From Leptogranulimonas caecicola (GTDB lineage: Bacteria > Actinomycetota > Coriobacteriia > Coriobacteriales > Atopobiaceae): DNA of 64,000 nucleotides. Under the pieces are notes generated by a model. It was given only the letters and a program-made list of their open reading frames with translations. It searched no databases and was not told where the DNA came from. A program made the translations under genes and the position numbers. The stretch's first letter is position 1; the number at the start of each line of letters is the position of its first letter. The stretch is taken from assembly GCF_023168405.1 (NCBI RefSeq), contig NZ_AP025285.1, positions 1,362,001 to 1,426,000 on the forward strand. The letters are read 5' to 3'. This document shows, piece by piece, positions 5,008 through 63,214 of the stretch.

Positions 5008-6027
5008 CTAAAGGTCTAGCAACAGCTCGGCGATTTGGACGGCGTTGGTGGCGGCTCCCTTGCGGATCTGGTCGCCGCAGCACCAGAAGGTGAGGCCGTG
5101 GGTGCCGGGAGCAGCAGAGAGGTCCTCGCGGATGCGGCCCACATAGACCAGGTCTTGGTCGGTGGTCTCAAGCGGCATGGGGTATTGCTGGGTTCCTGGA
5201 TCGTCCACCACCTTGACTCCAGGGGCTGCTGCGAGAATCTCGCAAGCCTCTGCCGGGGTGAGCGGACGCTCCAGCTCCACCGTGATGGACTCGGAGTGAG
5301 AGCGGGCTACCGGCACGCGCACGCAGGTGCAGTTCACGCGCAGATTGGGATCGTGCATGATCTTGCGGCCCTCGTTTTGCATCTTCATCTCTTCAGAGGT
5401 ATAGCCTGCTCCGTCAAAGCCGCCGATCTGGGGGATCAGGTTGTAGGCCAGCTGATAGGCGAAGGCGCGAGGCTTGGGCATGGGCATGCCCTCCACAATG
5501 GCTTGATTCTCTGTTTGAAGCTCTTCCATGCCGGGAAGGCCGGCGCCAGAGGCCGCCTGATAGGTAGAACAGATGATGCGCGTCACGCCAGCAGCTGCAG
5601 CCAACGGAGCAACGCACACCAAACCGATGATGGTGGCACAGTTGGGGTTGGCGATGATGCCCTGGTTGAGGGCCACGTCTTGAGGGTTGATCTCGGGGAT
5701 CACCAGCGGCACGTCAGGGCCTAGGCGAAAGGCGCTGGAATTGTCCACCACGCAGGCGCCTGCGGCCACCGCGTGAGGCAGAAGGGCCTCGGCCACAGGA
5801 TTGTCTGCAGCGCCCAATACGATGTCTGCCCCTGCAAAGGAGTCGGGTGTGGCCTCCTCCACTCGCACCAGCCGCCCGTTCCAGGCGATGATGGCGCCTG
5901 CCGAGCGCGCGCTGGCCAAAAGGCGCAGCTCGCCTACGGGAAAGTCGCGCTCTTCCAAGCACTGCATCATCTGCTGGCCCACGGCGCCGGTGGCGCCCAG
6001 AATGGTCACGTTTTTTTGATCTGCCAC
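5008..6027 (-). CDS. asd: Aspartate-semialdehyde dehydrogenase
   Basis: Reduces aspartyl phosphate to aspartate semialdehyde with NADPH, the branch point to lysine, threonine and methionine. 339 residues. Visible are the N-terminal dinucleotide motif GATGAVG, the active-site cysteine in NPNCATI and the later substrate-binding region. The start is GTG at 6027 with AAGGGGG 6 bases before it. It is the last gene of the minus-strand run hom, lysC, asd, about 81 bases after lysC, so the three steps are probably one operon. Confidence 0.97.
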   Translation of the reverse strand: MADQKNVTILGATGAVGQQMMQCLEERDFPVGELRLLASARSAGAIIAWNGRLVRVEEATPDSFAGADIVLGAADNPVAEALLPHAVAAGACVVDNSSAFRLGPDVPLVIPEINPQDVALNQGIIANPNCATIIGLVCVAPLAAAAGVTRIICSTYQAASGAGLPGMEELQTENQAIVEGMPMPKPRAFAYQLAYNLIPQIGGFDGAGYTSEEMKMQNEGRKIMHDPNLRVNCTCVRVPVARSHSESITVELERPLTPAEACEILAAAPGVKVVDDPGTQQYPMPLETTDQDLVYVGRIREDLSAAPGTHGLTFWCCGDQIRKGAATNAVQIAELLLDL

Positions 6028-6108
6028 GAGATCCCCCTTAAAGATCTTGGGTTTCTACCTACGATGGGCGGGTTTCTCGGCAGCCAAAAGGCCGCCAAAA
6101 GGCCGCCG

Positions 6109-7419
6109 CTACTCGATGAAGGCGTCGTAGACTGCCTGGACGGTGCGCTCGAAATCCTCGTTGTTCACACCGATGATGATGTTGATCTCTTGGGAGCTCT
6201 GGGTGATCATGCGCACGTTGATGCCTTCGTTGCCAAGCACGCCCAAAAGCTTGCCCGAGGAACCGGGCCTGGAGCTCATGGACCGGCCAACCACGCTCAC
6301 CAGAGCCAAGGTGTCGATGACCTTGACGGTGTCCGGCTTTACTTCGCGCTGAATGTCGGCCACGATAGAATAGATGGAGTCCTTCACGTCACGTCCGTTC
6401 ACCACTACCGAGAAGGAATCGATCCCCGTGGGCACATGCTCGATGGAGACGTGGTAGCGCTCAAAGATGGAGAGCACCTGGCGCATGAAGCCCACCGCGT
6501 CGCTCATGTGGGTCTTGGCGATGTAGACCGAGAGAAAATCCTTGCGACCGGCGATGCCGGTGATCACCGGATCGTCAGGGGTGGCCTCCACGCGTTCGCG
6601 GATGATGGTGCCACCCTCCTCGGGCGCGTTGGTGTTCAGGATGGCGATGGGAATGTTGGCCTCGCGCACCGGGAAGATAGCCTCCTCATGGAGCACGTTG
6701 GCGCCCATGTAGGAGAGCTCGCGCATCTCGTCGAAGGTTATGGACTCGATGGTGCGGGGCCTGTCCACGATGCGGGGGTCGGCAGAGAGGAAGCCCGAGA
6801 CGTCCGTCCAGTTCTCATAAAGATCTGCCGAGAGGGCGTTGGCCAAGATGGAGCCGGTGATGTCTCCGCCGCCGCGATCCAACAGCTTGATCTCGCCGTC
6901 GGTGGTGGCGCCGTAGAAGCCCGGCATCACAAAGTGGCCCACCCGCACCACCAGCTCATGGACACGGTCAGCGGTGCGCTCCAGATCCAGCGACCCGTCG
7001 TGGTGAAAGACGATGGCGTCGGCGGCATCCACAAAGGGAAGCCCCAGGTACTCGGCCATGAGGTGGGCGGTGAACCACTCGCCGCGGCTCACAATGTATT
7101 CCGGGGAGTCAGAGGCCAGGCCCGCCCTGAAGTCGGCGAACTTCTGGGCCACCGGCCAGCTGAGTCCCAGATCCTCCTTGATATCGACGAAGCGCTGCTC
7201 GATGTCGTCCAGAAGCGCCGTGCAGTCGACGTTGTACTCTCGGTGGGCGTTCACCAGATAGAGCAGGTCGGTGACCTTGTTGTCGCCAGAAAAGCGCTTG
7301 CCTGCCGCGGAGACCACCACAAAGCGGCGGGCGTCGTCTGCGGCGATGATGGACTTGACTTTGCGAAACTGCTCGGCCGAGGCAACCGAGGAGCCGCCAA
7401 ACTTTGTGATCTTGAGCAT
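6109..7419 (-). CDS. lysC: Aspartate kinase
   Basis: Phosphorylates aspartate, the first committed step of the aspartate family. 436 residues. The N-terminal kinase motif KFGGSSVA starts at residue 4, the catalytic region includes DRGGGDITG, and the C-terminal quarter carries two ACT-like regulatory domains (for example near SSRPGSSGKL and INVRMITQSSQ), so lysine and/or threonine feedback is likely. The start chosen is the ATG at 7419 with GAGGGAG before it; the longer upstream frame lacks a site. It lies 89 bases downstream of hom. Confidence 0.97.
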   Translation of the reverse strand: MLKITKFGGSSVASAEQFRKVKSIIAADDARRFVVVSAAGKRFSGDNKVTDLLYLVNAHREYNVDCTALLDDIEQRFVDIKEDLGLSWPVAQKFADFRAGLASDSPEYIVSRGEWFTAHLMAEYLGLPFVDAADAIVFHHDGSLDLERTADRVHELVVRVGHFVMPGFYGATTDGEIKLLDRGGGDITGSILANALSADLYENWTDVSGFLSADPRIVDRPRTIESITFDEMRELSYMGANVLHEEAIFPVREANIPIAILNTNAPEEGGTIIRERVEATPDDPVITGIAGRKDFLSVYIAKTHMSDAVGFMRQVLSIFERYHVSIEHVPTGIDSFSVVVNGRDVKDSIYSIVADIQREVKPDTVKVIDTLALVSVVGRSMSSRPGSSGKLLGVLGNEGINVRMITQSSQEINIIIGVNNEDFERTVQAVYDAFIE

Positions 7420-7508: not shown

Positions 7509-8648
7509 TTAGTCTTGGGTGGCGAGCGCAGCCATGAAAGTGGTCGGGTCTTGGGACAGAAGCTTCTGGCAAAGCCCTGCGGCCGCTACGGCTGTGAGGC
7601 CATCCAACAGGACCAGGCCGCTCTCTTGGACTTGAGCGCCCTCGGGAAGAAGGTCTTGTGCCTGGGTGCGCACCAGGTAGCTGGAGGTGAGCAGCTCAGG
7701 CTTCCAGGCCAAGCGCTCCTCGCGGGGATAGACGGGCTTTTGGCCCGCGGCGCAGTCCAGAAGGTCCTGAACGATGGCGTCGCCGGTGGGCAGGGCTCCT
7801 GCGCCCTGGCCAAAGAACTTGAGGGGGCCCACGAAGTTTCCTACCAGCGTGGCCAGGTTGAAGTTGTCAGGCACGTTGGCCTCCAGAGAGGCAGCAGGCA
7901 CCAGCACGGGCTCCACCGCCGCCGCATAGCCTTGGCCGTCCTGGGTGGCACGAGCCATAAGGCGCACGCCATAGCCCATGGCGCCGAAGGCCTCTAGATC
8001 CTCTTTGGCAAGGTTGCGGATGCCCATAACGGGAATATCGCGGCGGCAAAGGGTGTTGAAAGCCAGGGTGGTGCTGATGATGCACTTGTTGACCACGTCG
8101 ATGCCGTCGATGTCCGCGGAGGGATCGGCCTCTGCATAGCCCAGCGCCTGAGCCTCTTTGAGCACCTCGTCAAAGGAGGCGCCCAGGGTGGCCATGCGAT
8201 AGATGATGTAGTTGGAAGTGCCGTTCAGAATGCCGGAGATCTGGGTGATGGTATCGGTGCGGCGGGCCTTCTCGATAGCGGCGATCCAAGGAATGCCGCC
8301 GCCCGAGCTGGCCTCTACAAAGAAGCCCACCCCTGCTTTGGAAGCCGCCTGGCTGAACTCCGGCAGATAGGCGGCCACCACGGCCTTGTTGGCGGTGACT
8401 ACCGACTTGCCTGCGTTCAGGCACCGCATAATGAAGCTGTGAGCGGGCTCAAGGCCGCCCATGGCCTCCACCACGCAGTCGATGGTGGGGTCTTCCACGA
8501 TGTCTTTGATGTCGTAGGTTACGCGAGGGTCCTCATAGGTATTGGGTAGCGTAAGGATTTTGACGACCTCCAATGAGGGCACGGCGCTGTCTACGATCTC
8601 GATGACGCCGCCACCAACGGTGCCTGCGCCGAGAAGGGCGATCCTCAT
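7509..8648 (-). CDS. hom: Homoserine dehydrogenase
   Basis: Reduces aspartate semialdehyde to homoserine. 379 residues. The Rossmann motif GAGTVGGGV is at the N-terminus, followed by TANKAVVA and the catalytic region with GILNGTSNYI. The C-terminus is short and lacks a clear full ACT domain, so allosteric control may differ from the usual long form. The ATG at 8648 matches the family start although its ribosome site is weak. It is the first gene of hom-lysC-asd and diverges from thrC, with 104 bases between start codons. Confidence 0.95.
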   Translation of the reverse strand: MRIALLGAGTVGGGVIEIVDSAVPSLEVVKILTLPNTYEDPRVTYDIKDIVEDPTIDCVVEAMGGLEPAHSFIMRCLNAGKSVVTANKAVVAAYLPEFSQAASKAGVGFFVEASSGGGIPWIAAIEKARRTDTITQISGILNGTSNYIIYRMATLGASFDEVLKEAQALGYAEADPSADIDGIDVVNKCIISTTLAFNTLCRRDIPVMGIRNLAKEDLEAFGAMGYGVRLMARATQDGQGYAAAVEPVLVPAASLEANVPDNFNLATLVGNFVGPLKFFGQGAGALPTGDAIVQDLLDCAAGQKPVYPREERLAWKPELLTSSYLVRTQAQDLLPEGAQVQESGLVLLDGLTAVAAAGLCQKLLSQDPTTFMAALATQD

Positions 8649-8752
8649 GTTTGTTAATCCAATCTTTCCGTTGGCCGCGCGTCTTATAGCCGGCCGCGTC
8701 CTTAGGTACCATGGGAGAGACGCATCCAACGAACCCTAAGGGAGTCGTCTCG

Positions 8753-10303
8753 ATGAAATCGTTCTACCACAGCACTCGCTCCTTCTCGCAACCCGTAACA
8801 AGCAAGCAAGCAATTCTTGAGGGTATAGCGCCCGACGGAGGCCTTTTCGTGTCCGATGGCGCCTTCGACGACCTCGTTGAGCTCTCAGATATGTTGGCGG
8901 GCACCTATGAGGAGCACGCTGCAGAGATCTTGGGAAGACTGCTGTGCGATTTCTCGGCACAGGAGCTTTCGGGCTGCGTGCGCCGCGCCTATGGGTCCAC
9001 CTTTGCAAGCCCTGCAGTGACCCCGGTGACTCCTGTGGGAGATGACTTCTTGCTGGAGCTCTATCACGGCCCCACCAGCGCCTTCAAAGACGTGGCGCTC
9101 CAAATGCTGCCCCAGCTCATGGGCGTGGCGCGCCAAGGTGACGGGCGAGACATCATGATCGTGTGCGCCACCTCGGGCGATACCGGCAAGGCGGCGCTGG
9201 CTGGCTTTGCGGGAGTCGAGGGCTGCGGCGTCACCGTGTTTTACCCCCATGGCAAAGTGAGCGACGTCCAGCAGCTGCAGATGGCCACCCAGACCGGCCA
9301 TAACGTGGAGGTCTGCGCGGTAGAGGGCAACTTCGACGATGCCCAAAGCGAAGTCAAGCGCATCTTTGGCGACCGTCAGCTGGCAGGGCGCCTGGAGGCC
9401 CAGGGCTGCGTGCTCTCCAGCGCCAACTCCATCAACATCGGCAGGCTGGCGCCTCAGGTGGTCTACTACTTTGACGCCTATGGCCAGCTGGCAAAAGAGG
9501 GCGCTCTAAAGCTGGGCGATCCTGTGGACTTCTATGTGCCCACGGGCAACTTTGGCGACGTGCTGGCAGGCTACTATGCCAAGCGCCTGGGGCTTCCGGT
9601 AGGCCGCCTCTACGTGTGCTCCAATGCCAACGACGTCCTTTGCGACTTCTTGGAGACCGGCGTCTACGATCGCCGCCGCGACTTCCACAAGACCATCTCT
9701 CCCTCCATGGATATCCTCATCTCGTCCAATCTGGAGCGCCTGCTCTACTATGCTTCCGACAGCGACGTGGAGCTGGTCTCCTCCCTCATGGACTCTTTGG
9801 CAAAAGACGGCGTCTACCAGGTGCCCCAGCCTGTCATGGACACCATCCGCGAGACCTTCAGCGGCGGCAAGGCCACCGACCAGGAGACCCGCGCCACCAT
9901 TGCGCGCACCTGGAATGAGACCGGCGTGCTCATAGACCCCCACACCGCTGTGGCCAAGACCGTGCTTGACGCCACCGAGCCTGAGGGCCGCGTACGTGTG
10001 GTCCTCTCCACCGCCAGCCCCTACAAGTTCTCCGCCGAGGTCTTGCGCGCCCTGGACCCCGCTGCCACCTTTGCCGACGGCTTCAAGGCCATGGATCGGC
10101 TGGCAGCCCTCACCCATACCCAACCGCCCGCACAGCTCTCGGGCCTGCGCTCCCTGCCCGTGCGCTTCACCCAGGTGGTGGAGCGCCCTGCCATGACCCA
10201 GGTGGTGGAGCACGCTTGCCAGTCCGTCTTCGATCTTTCCGATGCCGAGAAACCCATAGCCCCTGAGGCCGGGTCCTTCTCGGCAACAGAGAGCCAGGAG
10301 TAG
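8753..10303 (+). CDS. thrC: Threonine synthase
   Basis: PLP enzyme converting O-phosphohomoserine to threonine, 516 residues. The PLP lysine lies in SAFKDVALQM, and the phosphate-binding region CATSGDTGKAAL and the later SSANSINIGR match the family. The ATG at 8753 has AAGGGAG 8 bases upstream. thrB follows after 2 bases. The last 30 codons contain two TGCCGAGAA words in opposite orientation (10244 and 10277), which could fold the 3' end of the message into a hairpin. Confidence 0.97.
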   Translation: MKSFYHSTRSFSQPVTSKQAILEGIAPDGGLFVSDGAFDDLVELSDMLAGTYEEHAAEILGRLLCDFSAQELSGCVRRAYGSTFASPAVTPVTPVGDDFLLELYHGPTSAFKDVALQMLPQLMGVARQGDGRDIMIVCATSGDTGKAALAGFAGVEGCGVTVFYPHGKVSDVQQLQMATQTGHNVEVCAVEGNFDDAQSEVKRIFGDRQLAGRLEAQGCVLSSANSINIGRLAPQVVYYFDAYGQLAKEGALKLGDPVDFYVPTGNFGDVLAGYYAKRLGLPVGRLYVCSNANDVLCDFLETGVYDRRRDFHKTISPSMDILISSNLERLLYYASDSDVELVSSLMDSLAKDGVYQVPQPVMDTIRETFSGGKATDQETRATIARTWNETGVLIDPHTAVAKTVLDATEPEGRVRVVLSTASPYKFSAEVLRALDPAATFADGFKAMDRLAALTHTQPPAQLSGLRSLPVRFTQVVERPAMTQVVEHACQSVFDLSDAEKPIAPEAGSFSATESQE

Positions 10304-30828: not shown

Positions 30829-31947
30829 TTAATGCAACGACTCTCCTATCCTCTTCGATGCCTGCTCCATAGCTGAGAGTGCCGGGCGGTAGTAGTTTCG
30901 ATAAGTGCTCGTATGCTCGGATCGTCCATGCATCTTGTCCACAAGATCAGGCGCTACGCCTGCATCCAATGCAAGCGTGTCGGATGTGTGCCTAAGCGTT
31001 CCTGGCGGAACAGGTCGCAATCCATTGCGGGCGATCCAGTCTTTCCACCGCTTGTTAAGCTTCCACTCGGTGACGTTGACCATACGCTCTTGAGGGTCAC
31101 ACTGCTTGGCGATCTCCATAAGACGCTGGCGACAGGGGCTAAAGACGGGCACAGACCTCGCTCGGTGATCGTTCTTCATCTCATCCCTAAAACCATTGAC
31201 CTCATTGAAAGTGCAGCGCACAGTGACAGTCATGGTCTCAGTCTCTTTTCCGGTCATGAAGTCGTAAAGACGTGTGACCGAGAGGTCGCAGGGACGGGCG
31301 CCCATAGCCTCGCTCTTGGACAACGTCGAGAGTCCTAGGCAGAAATAGGCTTGCACCTCAATGGGCGCATCGTCGAGCACGTCCATCGCCTGGATGATCT
31401 CGTGGGCATCCCATGGCTGGATAGGCTCTTTGTGCTTTTGGACTACGTTGACTCGGCGCTCGAGCGGCTTCTCTGTGAGATAGCCGTCATCATAGGCGGC
31501 CCTGAGCACGGTGCGGAGCACCGCCTTACATTGCCTGGGAGATGCCGACTCGCGAATGATGGCTGCAGCTTTGTCATGGGTGATGCGGTCGAGCCGTAAG
31601 CCGCCGATCTTAGGCAGAACATAGGCTTTCATTACATAGTCATAGCCCTTGAGGGTGGTTGGAGCCCTGGGCTTTCCTCGATTGCTTGGCGCATCCCTAA
31701 AGAAGGACCAGTAGTAGGTCGAAAGGGTCATCGAGTCGCCGGTGAAGTCTGATGCACCGAGCTGCTTGGCCATGCGCACAACTTCTGCCTCTGCCTCATC
31801 GCTTGTCACGTTGTGCAGTGTCTTGGTAAGCACGCGACGCTTGCCGTCGCTCCTATAGCCACGCGACACTCTGATTTTGCAGCTCTTGCCATCGTCAGAC
31901 CACTGAATGTTGCCCATCTTCCGATAATTGGTTTTCCGCTTGGCCAT
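30829..31947 (-). CDS. Tyrosine recombinase (phage integrase 1), atypical catalytic residues
   Basis: 372 residues with the layout of a phage integrase: N-terminal arm-binding part, core-binding helical region (about 75-170) and a catalytic domain ending TYRNYYRP. It lies 118 bases from the tRNA-Leu attachment site and reads toward it, the usual position. The conserved first arginine (GLR-x-GE) appears here as LSKSE, that is Ser, and the box III region reads MHGRS instead of a GH pair; the box II LRHT and the tyrosine remain. It may be a divergent or impaired enzyme. The ATG at 31947 follows GGCGGGTGCC, close behind hicB. Confidence 0.85.
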   Translation of the reverse strand: MAKRKTNYRKMGNIQWSDDGKSCKIRVSRGYRSDGKRRVLTKTLHNVTSDEAEAEVVRMAKQLGASDFTGDSMTLSTYYWSFFRDAPSNRGKPRAPTTLKGYDYVMKAYVLPKIGGLRLDRITHDKAAAIIRESASPRQCKAVLRTVLRAAYDDGYLTEKPLERRVNVVQKHKEPIQPWDAHEIIQAMDVLDDAPIEVQAYFCLGLSTLSKSEAMGARPCDLSVTRLYDFMTGKETETMTVTVRCTFNEVNGFRDEMKNDHRARSVPVFSPCRQRLMEIAKQCDPQERMVNVTEWKLNKRWKDWIARNGLRPVPPGTLRHTSDTLALDAGVAPDLVDKMHGRSEHTSTYRNYYRPALSAMEQASKRIGESLH

Positions 31948-32729: not shown

Positions 32730-33623
32730 TTAAATTGGTTTGTCCAGAATTCCCATTATCTTCATCACTTTTGTTTTCAACCCAGAATCAGAGGAGAGCC
32801 TGCCAAGTACTTGATCTATCTGATTAACTATTAGTCCCTGATATTCTCCATCCGTCATCACGAGCTTCAATTTTTGACATAACTCTGCGTATCTAACGTC
32901 TTTATTTCTGCCAAACCTGGCACAGAATAGTCTTTCTCCATGAGCACAGGTGTTTCTAAAGTTGTTGGCAGTTTCATAGACTCTGCTTACCTTCTTTTGC
33001 AAAACCCTTTTGCCAACAGCTTCTGATAGATACTGTGCAGTTCTAATCTGATCTGCAGTGGTCATAAGGTTATAAAAATTTGACATGACACCAAATGTAA
33101 GACAACCGCTAACCACCCAAAGGGGAACACCGTGCTCCCTATTCATATAGTGCTTTATATAGTCTTTCCTTCTGTTGTCTTTTGCGGTCTCTAAAGAATG
33201 TATTAATTTACCTAAATTCTTTTGATAATCTCTACCCTGCGGGTATTGATCTACTGTTCTGTAATTACTTTGATCTAAGTAGTCTTCTACTCCCCTGTGG
33301 CTATAACAGAAAGCATGAACAGTAGCTGTTTTCAAGCGGCTTTCCACTACCAGAATTGCATCTAAGGTTCTATTGCGAAGCTCTCGATCAAAGTTATAAA
33401 GAGTAGTTAGCTGCTCAAAAGTGCATCCTTGGACATAGATTTCATGACCTCTAGTACTCCGGCCTCTATCTAAGAACAATTCCTTATATCCATTGACCAC
33501 TCGGTAATAATTGTTGCTGAGCAAGAATCTCTTGGCCATTTCTTTATCAGATACGACCATCCCTCGGTCTTCCAGTTTAGCAATTTGCTCTTCTATGGTC
33601 GTAAAGGGGTGGACATCTCCCAT
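32730..33623 (-). CDS. Abi_2 (AbiD/AbiF) family abortive-infection protein
   Basis: 297 residues. The N-terminal TTIEEQIAKLEDRGM, the middle LYNFDRELRNRTLDAILVVES and the C-terminal RNTCAHGERLF (an R-x4-H HEPN nuclease motif) fit the Abi_2 family, which gives abortive infection against phages and is thought to cut RNA. The ATG at 33623 follows AAAAGGATTGTT; the upstream in-frame codon has no site. A structured leader lies just upstream. The gene is AT-rich compared with the neighbours, suggesting separate acquisition. Confidence 0.88.
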   Translation of the reverse strand: MGDVHPFTTIEEQIAKLEDRGMVVSDKEMAKRFLLSNNYYRVVNGYKELFLDRGRSTRGHEIYVQGCTFEQLTTLYNFDRELRNRTLDAILVVESRLKTATVHAFCYSHRGVEDYLDQSNYRTVDQYPQGRDYQKNLGKLIHSLETAKDNRRKDYIKHYMNREHGVPLWVVSGCLTFGVMSNFYNLMTTADQIRTAQYLSEAVGKRVLQKKVSRVYETANNFRNTCAHGERLFCARFGRNKDVRYAELCQKLKLVMTDGEYQGLIVNQIDQVLGRLSSDSGLKTKVMKIMGILDKPI

Positions 33624-33639
33624 AACAATCCTTTTCGAC

Positions 33640-33725
33640 AACAAGAAAGGGGCCGTACCCGAAGGCGCGCACCCCTTTCCAGATGTCAGCCGAACGAAGT
33701 GCTGACACCAGATCCGTGATGACAG
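33640..33725 (-). ncRNA. Structured leader of the Abi_2 gene, abiF-RNA-like
   Basis: On the minus strand two hairpins lie between the upstream region and the Abi_2 ribosome site: TGTCAGC..GCTGACA (33685-33708) and AAAGGGG with an inner GCC-TTCG-GGT loop closing on CCCCTTT (33646-33680). A conserved RNA motif called abiF RNA is known upstream of AbiF genes; position and two-hairpin form agree with it. The match to that family was not tested here. Confidence 0.55.
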
Positions 33726-34008: not shown

Positions 34009-34905
34009 TCAATCAATGGGGAGCGTTCGCTCGTCAGAGGCTGGCTTCGTCGAATATACGTGCTCTACCGTCGATGCCGTTTGGATTCCTTTTGGTCCAC
34101 GCCTGGCAACAGACCGCATCCTGACGTGGTAGATGGAGCCTGGTCCGCAGTCAACGGTTGGATCTCGTGCGATCACCCTGTCCAAGAACTCTTGATCGTC
34201 CATCTTGGCAAGGAAGTTTAATCCATTGAGGTCGGAGAACTGCCATTCGCGCCTATTCTTTTCATAGACTGGGCTGATAAGAAACAGCGTGCGGTCACAC
34301 ACCTCCTCTAAATCGGAGGTAAGAGGTGGCAGGTTCGCGTCTTCGAATCCGCTAAACTCTCCCCTCTCCATGACAAAAGGATCGTCCTTAGCATCAGGCA
34401 CAGATACTCTCATTCCGGTGACCCCCTCGCACTGGTCCACTGCCTCCACCATTCTCCTCATTGACTTCTGGGCTATCGGATCAGAACAAAAGTTGTATTG
34501 GTTGATTGTCGTGATCACTGTAGATCCGTCGCCTGTGGATATGTTGACGGAGTCACCCTGCTGCTTCGCTTCCTTGGCCCCTCCCCGCTCGGAGAGTTCC
34601 TGGCGAAGTTTGAGGCCTGAGAGGGCCAGTTGTACAGAGCTATTGAGAAGCGACACCACTTCCACGCTCGACCCAGCAAGAAGCTGGCCAAGACTGACAA
34701 CTACCCCGAGCATCGCGTCAAGACACCCGTCATCAACACTCTTGATGACAGTATTGACCTCGATGCCGGGCATAGCGTGAGCCGATGCGATCTTGATGAG
34801 GTTTGAATAGTCGATGATTGCCTTTGAAAAGTTGACGGCATCCACTCCATCGAACTCACCGTTGAATTTAAATGAGACCGTCAGGCCGCGACGCACGATA
34901 TCCAT
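34009..34905 (-). CDS. Prophage protein of unknown function
   Basis: 298 residues. The start is the ATG at 34905, after AAGGAGGCCT, not the longer frame. The N-terminal part (FKFNGEFDGVDAVNF...) leads into a hydrophobic helix region with LLAGSSVEVVSLLNSSVQ, then a polar middle, and a C-terminal beta-rich part. I do not recognise the family. It lies in the minus-strand cargo block between the Abi_2 gene and the exonuclease-BRCT gene, where accessory and defence genes gather. Confidence 0.7.
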   Translation of the reverse strand: MDIVRRGLTVSFKFNGEFDGVDAVNFSKAIIDYSNLIKIASAHAMPGIEVNTVIKSVDDGCLDAMLGVVVSLGQLLAGSSVEVVSLLNSSVQLALSGLKLRQELSERGGAKEAKQQGDSVNISTGDGSTVITTINQYNFCSDPIAQKSMRRMVEAVDQCEGVTGMRVSVPDAKDDPFVMERGEFSGFEDANLPPLTSDLEEVCDRTLFLISPVYEKNRREWQFSDLNGLNFLAKMDDQEFLDRVIARDPTVDCGPGSIYHVRMRSVARRGPKGIQTASTVEHVYSTKPASDERTLPID

Positions 34906-35005
34906 AGGCCTCCTTCCATCCACATTAATGAGACCATTCTACCGATTGTGTGTCCCCTCCAACTAGGCTCCCATACCCGGTCGCCACAGCCTACGAGGTG
35001 AAAGG

Positions 35006-35206
35006 CTATGTAGTTAGGTCTTGGAGGCGGATCCACTCTTCCCAGTCGTCGGGAGCTTGGAAGTGAAACACTGTGCCCAGGACTCGGATGGGGCCGTCCT
35101 CCCAACGAAGCACGATGTCCTCGATGTCGGCATCGAAGGAGTCGGGAGAGAGCACGAGGGTGCGGCCCGTGGAATACCATCGTCGCATGAGGGCGCTGTA
35201 GCTCAC
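35006..35206 (-). CDS. Small protein of unknown function
   Basis: 66 residues with acidic patches (DSFDADIEDIVLRWEDG). The start is GTG 17 bases after the preceding gene's stop; translation may be coupled. No family recognised, no membrane segment. It may form a pair with the exonuclease-BRCT protein. Confidence 0.45.
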   Translation of the reverse strand: MSYSALMRRWYSTGRTLVLSPDSFDADIEDIVLRWEDGPIRVLGTVFHFQAPDDWEEWIRLQDLTT

Positions 35207-35224
35207 GACCAGCGAAGGAGTCGA

Positions 35225-36316
35225 TCATTTTTTACCGAATAGAAGAGCAAGCACGATCAAGATTGCCACAATAATCGGCCACCATGTCACCAATGCATAG
35301 ATGGCAAGCGCTACCAGAGCAACAATTAGTACAATCTTTACCAATGGCCAAATGTTTGTACTCTCCCCAGCAGCATCTCCCAATGACCCTTTGCTATGGC
35401 TCGCAGAACCGCCGGTTGAGCCAGCGGCTTCATTGGTAGGCAGCTCCAGCATATCCTGATGCACCACCTTGAATGGCTGCTGCCTGCCCAGGCCTCTGAC
35501 CATGTTTTCCGCATAGTCATCGTAGGGGACGATTTCGACGTTGGTGCGACTCTTATACTCCTGGGCCTTCTTGATTTTCGAATCTCCGGGGTTATCAAGC
35601 ACGACCAGGTGCGTGGTCTTGAGAGTAACTCGATCTTGGAGCGCTGCACCAAGTTGGTGAGCCTGCATCATAAGGTCATGCACACTGGGTGACTGGAACC
35701 GCCCAGTGAAGACTATCGAGCAACCGGTAAGGGGACCATCATGCGGAGTTCCAAACACAGCAGCTCTCTCGGTCGTTGCAATGATGTTCTTTCTCATTGC
35801 CTCTAAACAGAGCCAAGTCGCACGGGCGTCCGCCAGGGCATCGTGGCCGCCGGGGGAAATGCCATAGTCATGACAAAGATCTTTAAGCTTCCTGCGATAT
35901 CCAAACATTGATTTTGCGACACTCATACAATCGAACGCTTTCCATTCGGGAAGCTTGACGCCATGTCTCCTTGCATTGCTTTGGAGCATGGGTACATCGA
36001 AGCTGTCGGAATTGTATCCGACAATGGGAAAATCGCCCACAAAGTCTATGAACCGACGAATCGCTTCGTCGGTTTTTGGGCTACCGGAGACCATCGACCG
36101 AGTAATCCCATTGACTCTTTGCGCTTCTGGAGATAACGGCACGTCAGTGTCCACATAGGTTGCAAACGACTGTTCTTCCAACCCATCAACAATGCGAATA
36201 GCGCCGATCTGGAGAATGCCGTCACTCTCGCAAGACAGCCCTGTGGTCTCGAGGTCGAATACGACATATGAAGTTGGATACTTTTCTATAGGAAACTGGC
36301 TTGAGCCATACGACAT
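35225..36316 (-). CDS. DnaQ-like exonuclease with BRCT domain and C-terminal membrane helix
   Basis: 363 residues. A DEDDh 3'-5' exonuclease fold (about 12-180) shows VVFDLETTGL, GYNSDSFDVPML and HDALADA; a BRCT-like domain follows (about 190-270, GCSIVFTGRF...); a polar linker then leads to hydrophobic segments at the C-terminus (LVKIVLIVALVALAIYALV and IIVAILIVLALLFG). Exonuclease plus BRCT is common; anchoring it in the membrane is not. The ATG at 36316 has AAGGAAG upstream. It follows the repressor gene closely on the same strand and may be expressed in the lysogen. Confidence 0.82.
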   Translation of the reverse strand: MSYGSSQFPIEKYPTSYVVFDLETTGLSCESDGILQIGAIRIVDGLEEQSFATYVDTDVPLSPEAQRVNGITRSMVSGSPKTDEAIRRFIDFVGDFPIVGYNSDSFDVPMLQSNARRHGVKLPEWKAFDCMSVAKSMFGYRRKLKDLCHDYGISPGGHDALADARATWLCLEAMRKNIIATTERAAVFGTPHDGPLTGCSIVFTGRFQSPSVHDLMMQAHQLGAALQDRVTLKTTHLVVLDNPGDSKIKKAQEYKSRTNVEIVPYDDYAENMVRGLGRQQPFKVVHQDMLELPTNEAAGSTGGSASHSKGSLGDAAGESTNIWPLVKIVLIVALVALAIYALVTWWPIIVAILIVLALLFGKK

Positions 36317-36370
36317 ATGAATTCTTCCTTCATCTATCGAAGCTTTACGTTCCAACGCTCGTTAGAAAAC

Positions 36371-37018
36371 TCAGAACTTCCAGTTATAGGTGGGCATAAA
36401 CCAGACCACACGCCCGATGATGGTTATTTCCTCAGTACCATCCTCGCCATAGTCGTAGATCTTCGGCTTGTAGGTTGGATCGGTGGAGTCAGGCGACAGC
36501 TCGAAGCCGTTTGCTAAAACGTTAACCCGCTTGACAGTCGCATCAAATCCGTTGACACACACTGCATAAGGCTGCCCTGGGTAGTCCACCTCGTTGCATG
36601 GGTCTATGAGGGCAAGACAGCCGTCAGGCAGTATGCGATTCATGGACGTACCTCTGACTCGTAAGAAAAAGGCCTTCGGCCAATGGCGCTTTACGCCACC
36701 AGGGACACTCACAAGCTCATCGACAGGAATCATCTCTATAGGGATACCAGCAGCTATGGACCCGTAGACAGGGATCTCTGCTTCATCGTCATTCAGGACT
36801 TCTATCGGAGTTGGATCATCAGAGACGCCCATCAGGAATGGCACTGATACTCCCAAAAGGTCGGCTAGCGTCTTTATCTCGTCGGCCCTGATTTTTCGAG
36901 CACCAGACTCATATCTCTGGATCGTTGCCTGCTGAACGCCATAGGCATCTGCCAGCTTTTCTTGGCTCCAACCCTTAAGTGCACGAGCCTCAGAAAGCCT
37001 CTGCCTAATCTCGGCCAT
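36371..37018 (-). CDS. CI-type phage repressor (HTH plus S24 peptidase)
   Basis: 215 residues from the ATG at 37018 (AGGAGG upstream). Residues 1-60 are an Xre-type helix-turn-helix (SQEKLADAYGVQQATIQRYESG); the C-terminal half is a LexA/S24 auto-cleavage domain with VRGTSMNRILPDG (Ser) and AVCVNGFDATVKRV (Lys). It maintains lysogeny and would be cleaved after DNA damage. Divergent from Cro with three operator-like sites between. Confidence 0.93.
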   Translation of the reverse strand: MAEIRQRLSEARALKGWSQEKLADAYGVQQATIQRYESGARKIRADEIKTLADLLGVSVPFLMGVSDDPTPIEVLNDDEAEIPVYGSIAAGIPIEMIPVDELVSVPGGVKRHWPKAFFLRVRGTSMNRILPDGCLALIDPCNEVDYPGQPYAVCVNGFDATVKRVNVLANGFELSPDSTDPTYKPKIYDYGEDGTEEITIIGRVVWFMPTYNWKF

Positions 37019-37146
37019 CTCAATGCGCCTCCTGAACTGAATACAACTTAAGTGAGATTTTTTCATACCAAAGTGGTTTACAGCTAATCCATTTCGGTAT
37101 ATAGTCTCAATTGAATTGAAACCGTTTTGGTATATAAGAGGTGCAT
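37019..37146. promoter_or_regulatory. CI/Cro divergent operator region
   Basis: Three related 15-base sites occur: AAACCGTTTTGGTAT at 37119-37133, AATCCATTTCGGTAT at 37086-37100, and an inverted copy ATACCAAAGTGGTTT at 37065-37079. Spacing and number resemble a lambda-type right operator. Sites lie across the presumed promoters of both genes. Confidence 0.75.
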
Positions 37147-37359
37147 ATGCGACGCGCAAATCTTGCTGCAGAACGAGCACGCCGAGGTTGGACGCTTGCC
37201 GAGGCAGCATTCCGTATCGGTGTTTCCACAAACACATACATGGAATGGGAGAAGGGATCCGGCTCAATCCGATCCGAAAACCTCGAACGGCTCCATGACT
37301 TGTACGGGCGACCAATCGAGTACCTGCTCAAGCGAGAGTCAGATCAAACCACCGACTAA
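37147..37359 (+). CDS. Cro-like HTH protein
   Basis: 70 residues with a helix-turn-helix (GWTLAEAAFRIGVSTNTYMEWEKG). It starts at the ATG 6 bases after AGAGG. Divergent from the repressor and first in the plus-strand early run; would favour lytic development by competing at the shared operators. Confidence 0.85.
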   Translation: MRRANLAAERARRGWTLAEAAFRIGVSTNTYMEWEKGSGSIRSENLERLHDLYGRPIEYLLKRESDQTTD

Positions 37360-37383
37360 CAAACACGACTTAAGGAGAACCAC

Positions 37384-58615: not shown

Positions 58616-59019
58616 CGCTTCTGGCCTGGGCCTGGGAAAACCATCGCGACGAGCTGATAGCCGACTTCCAAGAGACCTACCAGCTCAATGCCTACGACTT
58701 CGACCTCGACGGTGGGGGATGTCAGATCGATAGGGCCGCAGCCCTTCTCGCTCAACTCCCCTCATCGTCGAGGCTTGCTTTGATCCAGGAACCCGACGGC
58801 GCCTGGGACGAGCGAGCACGGCTCCTCTGGCAGATCGAGTACGACCTGCGCTGCATCAGCTGGAGCCTGGGGAGGGGCAAAGGCAAAAAGCCGAAGCCTC
58901 TCAAGACCCCTGGCGAGGCCAAGCGTCAAGACGAGCATTTGAAAGCCTCCCTGGCTTCCAAGGCCAAGGTAGACGAGATATTGGCATCGGTCATCCCAGA
59001 CCTTGCCAAGAGTTCATAA
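58612..59019 (+). CDS. Tail assembly chaperone, -1 frameshift extension (gpGT-type)
   Basis: Reading resumes in the -1 frame at CTA (58612) and runs to the stop at 59019, adding 135 residues to the 89 of the zero-frame product. The extension reads LALLAWAWENHRDELIADF and later RLLWQIEYDLRCISWSL, ending PDLAKSS. No ATG with a ribosome site starts it, so it is expected only as a fusion. This is the classical G/GT arrangement before the tape measure. Confidence 0.85.
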   Translation, partial: LALLAWAWENHRDELIADFQETYQLNAYDFDLDGGGCQIDRAAALLAQLPSSSRLALIQEPDGAWDERARLLWQIEYDLRCISWSLGRGKGKKPKPLKTPGEAKRQDEHLKASLASKAKVDEILASVIPDLAKSS

Positions 59020-59032
59020 AGGAGGTGAGAAG

Positions 59033-59598
59033 ATGGCTGGATATGTAGGCACTGCCTATGTGCGTGTGGTTCCTGCCGCCAAGGGCTTCGTGAAGAGCCT
59101 TGCCGGAGAATCCTCCAAGGCAGGTACTGAGGGCGGCAAGGCCTTTGGAGGCGCTTTTGGCAGCTCTCTAGGCCCTCTCAACGGAGCCTTAGGAGCTGTC
59201 AAAGGAGCTGTCTCTGGCGTGGTGAAAGCCACCGTTGCCGGAGGGGCCGCAATGGCAGGCGCCTTTGGCGTAGCCGCCAAGAGTGCCCTAGATGCCTATG
59301 CCACCTACGAGCAGGTGAAGGGTGGCGTAGAAACCCTCTTCAAAGACGCGGCTCCGGCTGTGATCCAAAACGCCCAAGCGGCTTACAAGAGTGCTGGCAT
59401 GAGCGCCAATGCGTACATGACCACGGTGACGGGCTTCTCGGCATCGCTGCTCAAAAGCCTGGGAGGCGACACTGCCAAGGCCGCAGGCTATGCCGATCGC
59501 GCCGTGCGCGACATGAGCGACAACGCCAACAAGATGGGCACCAATATCGTCGATATTCAAAATGCTTATCAGGGCTTTGCCAAGCAAAACTATACGAT
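59033..59598 (+). CDS. Tape measure protein, exon 1
   Basis: First part of the tail tape measure gene, start ATG after AAAGGAGGTGAGAAG (strong). Gly/Ala-rich then ALDAYATYEQVKGGVETLF, ending YQGFAKQNYT plus two bases of a methionine codon. The frame is broken shortly after by an in-frame stop, but continues after the intron, where the family sequence LDNLKLGYGGT resumes. Exons together: 3399 bases, 1132 residues. Confidence 0.9.
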
Positions 59599-60381
59599 AG
59601 ATCTAATGTCTGCTGCCTAGGTGACTATGCAGTAAGCGTGGGTGAACCTTACCAGGGGTGTGGGCTGAGAAGGCCTGCTAACGGTGAAACTCTAAACGCC
59701 TAGAAGCGCATGACAACACCGTGCTAAGACAAAGCTATAAGCAACAGTACAATGGTTTTGTAAAGTGTAGAGACTATGGGTTCGTCACCCAGTACTCTGC
59801 CTATCGGTACGGCAGAGGAAGTGCCCACCAACTTCTTGAAGGAATCAATGGAGCAGTGGAAACCTATCAGCGACCTTCCTGGTTATTCCATTAGCAACGA
59901 AGGAAGAGTTCGCAGAGATACAGACGGTCATATTATGAAGCTTGGAACCAATAACGGTTATCAGCGCATTGTTGTTGCCAAGCATGTCCACCGCCTTGTG
60001 GCAGAGGCATTTTTGCCCGAGCCGGAAGATGGCACAAAGCGATGGGTCGACCATATTGATGGCAATAGGTCGAACAACAATGTCGAAAATCTTCGTTGGG
60101 TTACACCAAGTGAGAATTGCCTGGCTTATGGATACAAAAACCGTATCCAGAATAAAAAGAGACCAGTTCAGGCCACGAACACATTGACCAATGAGGTCTT
60201 GGTATTTGAGTCCAGGCAAGCGGCCGCAGAGTACTTCCATTGCCATGATTCGCAAATATCCTACGGCTACGTCTACAAAAAAGGACGCAAGCGAAACTGG
60301 ATTTTCGAGAAGCTGAAGAGATAGTCCAATCCCGCTGTTGTAAGCAGCGTTAAAGTATTGGGAAACCAAGGGTATTTAATG
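59599..60381 (+). ncRNA. Group I intron in the tape measure gene
   Basis: 783 bases. The conserved R and S elements are seen: GTAGAGACTATGG at 59767-59779 and AGAGATAGTCCAA at 60317-60329, which pair as P7 (GACTAT with ATAGTC). A P9-type hairpin GCTG..GCAGC follows and the intron ends in G. Removing 59599-60381 joins ..ACGAT and GTTAG, giving the family consensus YT-M-LDNLKLGYGG. Splice sites are inferred from the reading frame and a U/G pair and could shift by a few bases. A homing endonuclease is encoded inside. Confidence 0.88.
59848..60324 (+). CDS. HNH homing endonuclease (NUMOD4-HNH) within the intron
   Basis: 158 residues from the ATG at 59848 (GAAGGAATCA upstream). N-terminal NUMOD4 ([20 protein letters not shown]), then HNH with HRLVAEAFL.. 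[21 protein letters not shown], and a C-terminal NUMOD-like DNA-binding helix. Its TAG stop lies inside the intron S element. A longer frame from 59776 overlaps P7 and is less likely. Cuts intron-less genes so the intron can spread. Confidence 0.88.
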
Positions 60382-63214
60382 GTTAGATAACTTAAAGCTT
60401 GGCTATGGCGGCACCCAGTCCGAGATGCAGAAGCTCATCGCCGATGCATCCAAGATGACTGACGTGCAAAAAGCACTCGGCGTCACTGTGGATTCCAGCT
60501 CTCTGAGCTTCGACAACATCGTGAACGCCATCTCTGTGGTGCAAACCTCCCTAGGCATCACCGGTACCACATCTCAAGAGGCCGCTGACACCATCGAAGG
60601 CTCCGTGAACTCGATGAAGGCTGCCTGGGAAAACCTGCTCACCTCCGTCGCCGCAGAAGACTGGGACGTCTTCAACGTGGGAGCGCTGCAGGGCACTGCA
60701 GCCCAGTTCATGGGCACCGTGGAAAACGTCTGTCGAAACGTCGCCAAACGGGCGGCCATCATTGTGCCCACCATGGTGTCGGTGCTGGCTGAGGCCTGGC
60801 CAGACCTCTTCCTCGCAGTGCAAACCGGCATCGCCGACGGCCTGCCAGAAGCCATGAGACAGCCTTTCTTGGACGCCACCAACGGTCTTTTCGACTTTGT
60901 GGCGGGCCTCTTCGACGGCTTTGGCTCTGCCTTCGATCTCTCTAGCCTCACAGGAGCCTTCACGGGTCTAAAAGACGCCTTCTTTGGAGCCTTTGGCGCC
61001 GATGCTACCAGTGCAGGCACCAACTTCGGCACTGCCTTGGGCTCCATCGCCCAGGCAGCCACCAACCTGCTTGTCGCAGCCACTCCTTTGGCTGCCATGG
61101 CAGGAGCGCTGGCTTCTGTGGCCCTGCCCTTGCTTGCCAACGCCCTAGGCTTTCTGGCCGAGCACATGGACGTCATCGTTCCTGCAGTGGGGCTTCTTGT
61201 GGCAGGCTTCATCCTCTTCAAGGCCGTCATGGCGGGCATGGCCATTGTCCAGACGGTCTCTGGATTTTTCGCAGGTCTCGGTGGAGCCGTCACGGCGTCT
61301 GCCGCCCCCATGGCCGCCTCGGTGCCCCAGATCCTTGCCATGGCCGCAGCCTGCGTGGCCCTAGGAGCCGGAGTCCTCATGGCCTCCGCTGGCCTTGCCC
61401 TGCTGGTGCAGTCAGCCATCTCCATCGCCACTGCGGGCCCAGGAGCAGCTTTGGCTCTCGTAGGCCTTGTGGCGGCAGTGGCAGCCTTAGCGGCAGGGGC
61501 TGCCCTTCTCGGCCCCGCCTTGACGGCAGGAGCTGTGGGTATTGCAGCTTTTGGCTTGGCAGTGCTTGCAGTGGGCGCCGGGATGCTTCTGGCAGGAGTA
61601 GGCATCACTTTGCTGGCAACCCAGTTGCCGGTGATCGCTGCCTCGGGCATTCAGGCCTCTGTAGCCCTAATTGTGCTGGCGGCAGGGGTGGCAGTGATTG
61701 GCGCCGCATCTCTCATTGGTGCTGTGGGCATCGCCGCCCTAGGGGTGGCTGTGGCTGCCGCTGCCATTGGCTTGGCGGCTGCTGCTATCGCCACCGCCGC
61801 CTTGGCGGCAGCCGTGGTGATTCTGGGAGCGGGAGCGCTTCTGGCAGGAGTAGGCATCACTTTGCTGGCAACCCAGTTGACGGTGATCGCTGCCTCGGGC
61901 ATTCAGGCCTCTGTAGCCCTAATTGTGCTGGCGGCAGGGGTGGCAGTGATGGGCGCCGCATCTCTCATTGGTGCTGTGGGCATCGCCGCCCTAGGGGTGG
62001 CTGTGGCTGCCGCTGCCATTGGCTTGGCGGCTGCTGCTATCGCCACCGCCGCCTTGGCGGCAGCCGTGGTGATTCTGGGAGCGGGAGCGCTTCTGGCAGG
62101 GATGGGCATGAGCGTGCTTGCTGCAGCTCTGCCTGTGGTGGCAGCCTCTGGAGTGTCTGGGGCCGCTGCCCTGGTGGCTCTGTCGGCGGGGCTTCTAGCC
62201 CTGTCGGCAGGGGCATTGGCAGCAGGCGCCGGAATTCTTGTCATGACTGCGGGCCTTGTGGCCCTTACCGTAGGCCTTGCCGCCTGTGCGGTGGCCTCAG
62301 CCGCCCTGGCTCTTGCCATGACGGCTATGGGGGCTGCAGTGATCTTGAGTTCTGTGGGCCTTCTGATGATGGCCCCGTCGGTGCTCATGATTGCCACAGC
62401 CATGCCTTTGCTGGCAGCCTCTTCGCTGGCGGCAGCCCCGGCCATCGCCGCTCTAGGTGTGGCGGCTGCAGCGGCTGGAGCAGCCCTTCTTCTAGCCGCT
62501 CCTGGCTTTGCGGCCTTTGCTGGGGCTGCAGGGCCTGCAGCAGACTCGGTGGTGAAGCTGGCCTCTGCTTCCAAGCAGATCGCTTCCTCCAGCTCGGCGG
62601 GAGCCTCTGGCCTCAACCGCATGGGCTCTGCAGCAAAGGCTGTCTCTAGCGCCTTAGGGCTGGTATCCACGGCTGGCATGGCTATGGCCACCTCTATGGG
62701 CTCCGCCACCTCCAACGTGAGTGCCAACTGCGAGCGTATGGGTTCCAGCTTTGCGGCCCTGGTGACAAAAGCTCAGCTGGCTGCCCTGCAAATCCAAGCA
62801 GCCTTCTCTTCCATGAGGCTCCATATCCCGAGCCCCACCTTAGGGCCGCTACCCCACTTCTCCATGAGCGGCAGGTTCGACCCTGCCACAGGAGCGGTGC
62901 CTGCCATCGATGTGTCCTGGTACGCTTCCGGCGCCGTCTTTGCCTCGCCCTCCATCGTGGGCGTAGGCGACGCCTCCACCCCTGAGATCGTCACTCCCGA
63001 GGCGCTCATGCGCTCGGTGGTAGACGACGCCCTTCAAGACAACTCCAGCGGCGATGTGACCGCCAGGATCATCTCCGCCTTTGTGGCCGCCCTAGAGCAG
63101 GCCCACATCACCGCCGATGCCTACATCGACGGCCAGTTGGCATCAGAGCAGCTGGCGCCCTACATGGACCGCCAGCTGGGACGGCGCCAGCGCCTGGTGG
63201 AAAGGGGGCTATAA
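60382..63214 (+). CDS. Tape measure protein, exon 2
   Basis: Continuation of the tail length-determining protein. LDNLKLGYGGTQSEMQ, then a long, extremely Ala/Val/Gly-rich hydrophobic region (about 60950-62550) which can form several membrane segments, and a C-terminal globular part. Two identical-looking 84-residue units are tandem at 61591-62094. The opposite strand shows long open frames here because of the composition; they are not genes. Confidence 0.92.
61591..62094 (+). repeat. 252-base tandem duplication in the tape measure gene
   Basis: Units 61591-61842 and 61843-62094 differ at very few bases (for example TTGCCGGTG versus TTGACGGTG and GTGATTGGC versus GTGATGGGC). Each encodes 84 residues, so the frame is kept. 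Confidence 0.9.

Follow-up and report, generated by a model that had tools for sequence, protein, structure and literature searches.

The window, meaning the whole 64,000-nucleotide stretch of DNA analysed here, belongs to a 2.0 Mb host genome in one contig and contains a prophage whose repressor region encodes a DEDDh exonuclease fused to a BRCT domain and a predicted membrane anchor. The features of the locus are as follows:

30829–31947 (−): tyrosine integrase at the prophage edge (PHROG 1 integrase, 1e-24)
32730–33644 (−): AbiD / Abi_2 abortive-infection gene in the repressor–integrase slot (PADLOC AbiD, 1.4e-49; Pfam Abi_2, 1.1e-38)
34009–34905 (−): LAPAL_fam / PDC-S42 candidate defence gene in the repressor–integrase slot (NF053583, 3.2e-26; PADLOC PDC-S42, 4.9e-14)
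35006–35206 (−): "66-codon gene", the 3' stump of a displaced S24 repressor (homology at 34992–35201)
35202–37364 (unstranded): immunity cassette of cro, repressor and exonuclease, missing from the sister phage L017 (blastn breakpoints 37365 and 35201, junction sequences)
35225–36316 (−): exonuclease gene; protein of 363 aa with DEDDh exonuclease, BRCT and C-terminal hydrophobic tail (Pfam, translation, AlphaFold2 mean pLDDT 83.9)
35231–35344 (−): C-terminal hydrophobic tail, residues 325–362, a predicted membrane anchor ending in GKK
35546–35743 (−): BRCT domain, Pfam residues 192–257 (PF00533, E 2.5e-8)
35816–36265 (−): DEDDh 3'-5' exonuclease domain, residues 18–167 (PF00929 RNase_T, E 1.6e-29)
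36322–36331 (−): Shine-Dalgarno-like GAAGGAAGAA ahead of the exonuclease ATG at 36316
36371–37018 (−): S24/HTH prophage repressor, 215 aa, directly upstream of the exonuclease (Pfam HTH_3, 4.5e-14; Peptidase_S24, 3.2e-17)
37141–37359 (+): Cro-like HTH gene, divergent, within the swapped cassette (Pfam HTH_3, 5.3e-11)

The integrase, an excisionase-like gene, AbiD, the PDC-S42/LAPAL gene, the exonuclease and the repressor all lie on one strand. The cro-like gene follows beyond the repressor, then a KilAC antirepressor and, at a greater distance, genes for terminase, portal, head and tail; phage genes continue to the right end of the window. A search for att sites, comparing 28–31.5 kb with 50–64 kb, returned only one 14-base chance match. 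The repressor and exonuclease genes are 54 nt apart with no terminator-like site between them, and GAAGGAAGAA stops 5 nt ahead of the exonuclease ATG.

Two other parts of the prophage deserve a remark. NCBIfam describes the LAPAL_fam entry matched by the gene at 34009–34905 (−) as a putative phage structural protein; because this gene occupies the repressor–integrase slot and matches PADLOC PDC-S42, the "structural" label is doubtful. Further along, a tape-measure match covers only a 205-aa ORF (59003–59620), after which come ORFs of 182 and 929 aa, and this region (window 59003–63214) may be split or unusual.

The first-pass annotation had proposed that a DEDDh exonuclease and a BRCT domain are joined in one protein, and the Pfam matches listed above bear this out. 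The catalytic residues D21, E23, D107, H158 and D163 are invariant across all 29 aligned rows, and the same holds for T204 and G205 in the BRCT domain. With an RNase_T domain and the complete D-E-D-H-D set, the window protein is a member of the DEDDh / RNase_T exonuclease superfamily; the closest PDB folds for its exonuclease domain are the exonuclease domains of DnaQ, PolC and DinG. An NCBIfam search additionally matched the NAD-ligase model dnlj to residues 178–255 (E 1.2e-7). AlphaFold2 modelled the exonuclease with confidence (pLDDT >90 in most blocks), and the BRCT domain as well.

The same annotation had described C-terminal hydrophobic helices. The hydrophobic tail itself is clear: it comprises two 19-residue Kyte–Doolittle stretches, 325–343 (2.92) and 344–362 (2.08), and shuffling the protein placed two such stretches within the last 45 residues in only 3 of 20,000 cases. 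The plural is less secure, as AlphaFold2 predicts a single continuous helix (323–360) after a disordered linker (277–319), and the tail may form one helix or two. Single-protein scans of viral and genome contigs returned no close relative of the exonuclease with the same tail.

The 66-codon ORF, previously taken for a small partner gene, proved not to be an independent gene. Its GTG start has no ribosome-binding site ahead of it, and searches of Pfam, PADLOC, PHROGs and NCBIfam gave no family match for the product. When viral contigs were scanned, one relative came up, L017: residues 3–66 of the ORF are 100% identical to the C-terminus of the 234-aa L017 repressor (HTH_26 and Peptidase_S24), and at the DNA level the two agree at 99.5% over 210 bases. 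On both sides L017 and the window prophage run colinear, with L017 23–5064 corresponding to window 42439–37365 (94.8%), 6000–6209 to 35201–34992 (99.5%) and 8419–9122 to 32665–31962 (96.6%). Given this identity and colinearity, the ORF is the C-terminal stump of a displaced repressor, and a role as partner, toxin or antitoxin was rejected on the strength of the 64 identical residues.

Between the two breakpoints, at window 37364–35202, the cro-like gene and the repressor differ from those of L017, which has a pair of its own there, and the exonuclease is present in the window but not at the corresponding site of L017. Read from the DNA alignments, this comparison shows that the exonuclease came in with the new cro and repressor genes as one exchanged unit. 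We infer the direction of the exchange, with the cassette entering the window prophage, from the repressor stump. The same slot of L017 (6244–9122) holds other cargo: in place of the exonuclease, LAPAL and AbiD, an ORF reading found small HTH and HicA-like genes resembling toxin–antitoxin pairs.

Repressors also have exo-BRCT genes next to them in Streptococcus phage Javan549, Campylobacter CJIE4-2 and Moraxella Mcat9, as they do in records of human gut phages and on a plasmid of Pediococcus. To quantify this association, two alignment-based scans of IMG/VR were combined, giving 160 loci that fell into 120 clusters when dereplicated at 70% identity; the counts exclude 6 clusters with 600 bases or less upstream, and a repressor-type HTH was scored when it lay on the same strand no more than 1.5 kb upstream. 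The HTH calls were made with a small home-made HMM, applied identically to the controls, which misses some true repressors (the L163 cluster, L255), so that the fractions are lower bounds. With all seeds taken from repressor-adjacent loci and with related phages still present among the clusters, an upstream HTH was found in 32 of 43 BRCT-fused clusters versus 4 of 59 other DEDDh clusters (Fisher 5.6e-13), and in 9 of 12 anchored BRCT-less clusters versus the same 4 of 59 (Fisher 1.8e-6; anchor labels were judged by eye with the context known, not blind). An integrase lay within 4 kb downstream in 16/43 BRCT-fused, 7/12 anchored and 3/59 remaining clusters. In the first scan, before dereplication, the HTH was seen at 11/13 BRCT-fused loci versus 2/61, and in the second scan alone at 42/54 BRCT-fused and 15/25 BRCT-less loci.

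The window protein belongs to this group of DEDDh-BRCT fusions in the temperate-phage repressor slot, with a BRCT domain behind the exonuclease and a same-strand repressor directly upstream. It also falls, by prediction, among the membrane-anchored DEDDh exonucleases of the slot, having a putative transmembrane segment in the same polypeptide. Tethering is not essential to the slot, since an anchor within the protein is lacking in the majority of repressor-linked exo-BRCT proteins (44 of the 120 clusters have the BRCT fusion but no anchor). Outside it, phage contig L146 (4311–5849) encodes a 512-aa DEDDh protein with a C-terminal SAP-like stretch.

Predicted anchors are of several kinds. N-terminal helices are predicted in the BRCT-less proteins of L149, L236, L259, L269, L271, L273, L295, L297 and L307, TM2 anchors at the N-terminus in L261 and at the C-terminus in L277, and a DUF4236 plus a helix in L255; L276 counts as anchored solely because it clusters with L273 and L275. 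In most anchored relatives an RBS-like sequence precedes the start codon that takes in the anchor, and most N-terminal anchors have basic residues behind them, the arrangement expected for an exonuclease on the cytoplasmic side. Other candidate anchors were rejected: in L242, L249, L287, L292 and L293 the hydrophobic stretch precedes the likely start codon, in L281 the frame has no exonuclease motif, and in L178, L185, L207 and L208 it is within the exonuclease fold or adjoins it. When 67 exonuclease domains, 13 of them from anchored proteins, were placed on a tree, 6 anchor changes were needed (bootstrap 6–8), and the starred branches alone force at least 2. The window protein groups with the Coriobacteriia exo-BRCT proteins on a branch with 91/75 support and no star, its exact position being unsure.

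Within the bacterial family, 14 of the 140 genomes searched gave an exo-BRCT match over both domains, and a class-wide search found a match at E 1e-50 or better in 13 of 396 genomes. Among the family exo-BRCT genes read, none has an anchor apart from that of the window and that of G103, a genome from another genus of the family. The G103 prophage (L056), whose exonuclease recurs identically in viral contig L064, has a gene order comparable to that of the window: antirepressor, cro-like gene, repressor, exo-BRCT, integrase. Its exo-BRCT protein of 342 aa is 33% identical to that of the window over 265 positions, with the predicted anchor at the N-terminus, and its repressor is 48% identical over 212 positions; a scan with the window repressor returned two distant relatives only. 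The cro-like gene of L056/L064 is similar to that of the window as well. That two prophages with related repressors carry their anchors at opposite ends of the protein suggests selection for tethering itself.

Other architectures were also met during these searches. In L057 (G162:C2, 8300–16700), the exo-BRCT frame is broken by a stop codon just before an apparent Cas9 gene split over two frames, which is accompanied by Cas1/Cas2-like genes and an array of CRISPR-like repeats. L061 (G114:C44) / L038 carries a tandem exo-BRCT pair on one contig with long extra C-terminal parts, and L010, L011 and L041, from the same order, encode a Cas2-like N-terminus fused to DEDDh, resembling the Cas2-DEDDh type.

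We consider it roughly an even chance (probability about 0.5) that the window protein is a lysogen-expressed, membrane-tethered DNA exonuclease acting against other incoming phages, as superinfection exclusion or prophage-borne defence. The exonuclease would be transcribed with the repressor or just behind it, and so be made during prophage silence. The C-terminal tail would hold the enzyme at the inner membrane face through a flexible linker of ~43 residues, the DNA-ligase-type BRCT domain would bind free ends of DNA (probably their 5'-phosphates), and strands would be digested from a 3' end by the DEDDh domain. Linear injected DNA could thus be attacked before circularising, and the closed chromosome of the host, not being at the membrane, would be spared. 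Linear ends mark injected DNA as against the closed chromosome, and such DNA appears at the membrane. What the analysis shows is the domain make-up, the complete catalytic set, the hydrophobic tail, the position behind the repressor and the recurrence of both the slot and different anchors. That the gene is co-transcribed with the repressor, and that the protein enters the membrane in the orientation given, binds DNA ends, degrades DNA and acts against phages, we infer. BRCT end binding is known for RFC and LigA, and by analogy the ligase-type BRCT of the window protein plausibly binds DNA ends. In one review, DNA-end sensing and membrane localisation are separate recognised specificity principles (PMC12904381); the window protein appears to unite the two. 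The earlier proposal of a membrane nuclease expressed with the repressor retains contextual support from the repressor slot, from AbiD and PDC-S42 downstream and from anchored same-slot relatives, whereas its small partner is refuted.

A role in lysogeny control seems unlikely. Here the exonuclease-BRCT protein would sense or process DNA ends and damage and either contribute to inactivating the repressor, in other phages together with ImmA/IrrE proteases, or delay induction. The fixed position beside the repressor would fit such a role, and ImmA/IrrE-type genes adjoin the exonuclease genes of L021, L144, L145, L156 and L255 and lie downstream in L152. However, the window repressor is of the S24 type, for which ImmA is not needed, the slot behind CI usually houses cargo genes, and the membrane anchors are left unexplained. 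Quite unlikely is a host-derived repair or recombination exonuclease, engaged in end trimming or in mismatch or fork processing, with an incidental tail. Phage copies are strongly linked to the repressor slot and have repeatedly gained anchors that a nucleoid repair enzyme would not need, although tail-less exo-BRCT genes do occur on chromosomes in the same bacterial family and nearby, and the BRCT match is of the LigA type.

We regard as very unlikely the clean-up of small DNA fragments left by other defences, in the manner of the diDNase branch of DEDD nucleases. The DEDD fold is shared, AbiD and PDC-S42 are neighbours, and diDNases are described from genomic islands and prophages of Gram-positives with a suggested role in superinfection resistance (PMC11706625). 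Yet that description includes neither a BRCT domain nor an anchor, the words "BRCT" and "transmembrane" being absent from the text of that paper (PMC11706625), and the best-matching folds, the DnaQ, PolC and DinG exonuclease domains, act on long strands. The least probable alternative, a soluble protein whose tail is an oligomerisation or partner-binding helix, could draw on the single 38-residue helix without a hairpin in the AlphaFold2 model and on the want of relatives sharing the tail in viral and genome contig scans, but it sits poorly with a mean hydropathy of 2.92 across 19 residues almost free of charge and with the clear predicted anchors, Pfam TM2 domains among them, of same-slot relatives.

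Extending the reading of a tethered anti-phage exonuclease beyond the window is more tentative. At somewhat less than even odds, in our judgement, there is an as yet unnamed class of temperate-phage "gate" exonucleases in several bacterial groups: lysogen-expressed DEDDh enzymes that travel with the repressor in the immunity cassette and are specific for incoming linear DNA by virtue of a BRCT end-binding domain, a membrane anchor or, as in the window, both, with anchors gained several times and at either end. If true, the immunity cassette would have two layers, a repressor against relatives and a nuclease against strangers, which would show that it can bear a broad DNA-entry barrier together with a specific repressor. 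Our literature search, covering titles and abstract openings with few subscription papers, found no published account of a prophage BRCT-exonuclease or of a membrane-anchored DEDDh exonuclease in phage defence.

PADLOC did not call the window exonuclease as a known system. Its DEDDh part matches positions 5–168 of the 411-position profile of PDC-S48, a candidate single-gene defence (E 1.2e-29). PDC-S48 has profiles of 411 and 512 positions; the best stretch of the match takes in the DEDDh part only, a second stretch being reported without coordinates, and we found no paper under the name PDC-S48. The protein resembles Cas2-DEDDh (PDB 8fy9; L010, L011, L041) through a DEDDh sequence match at residues 12–167 (3.1e-16); identity with that type was rejected, as Pfam gives no Cas2 match and the RNase_T match begins at residue 18. 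A fold match was also obtained to PDB 9mrd, "TREX1 homolog Plex9.1" (E 1.4e-9), on which the literature yielded nothing useful.

Mammalian TREX1 is a DEDDh 3'-5' DNA exonuclease of the eukaryotic ER, with a C-terminal membrane tail and no known BRCT domain, that clears stray DNA. It has only the general layout in common with the window protein. The superinfection-exclusion factors Sie2009 and TP-J34 Ltp of lactic phages are membrane proteins or lipoproteins encoded in the repressor slot and are not known to carry a nuclease domain. They share the genetic slot and the membrane location (predicted for the window protein) with the present system.

The nearest comparison is SNIPE, described in 2026 as a membrane-bound nuclease that cuts phage DNA during injection (PMC13190303). 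A version of SNIPE without its anchor was toxic (PMC13190303), and a similar hazard would explain the need for a tether here. In SNIPE, membrane anchor and nuclease are likewise united in a single protein, the SNIPE nuclease is cytoplasmic and its homologues vary in their anchors (PMC13190303). In contrast, SNIPE has an N-terminal helix, DUF4041 and GIY-YIG, whereas the window has DEDDh, BRCT, a C-terminal tail and a repressor cassette. That the window protein is itself SNIPE was rejected, since no DUF4041 or GIY-YIG Pfam match was found up to E 0.1. If the wider reading is true, the "gate" exonucleases would be to prophages what SNIPE is among defences and would parallel TREX1 in bacteria. 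The present results point to a second architecture, unrelated to SNIPE, that extends across dozens of temperate-phage clusters and is often fixed beside the repressor. On the best reading, and by analogy, the window system is comparable to SNIPE in principle, while its parts are unrelated.
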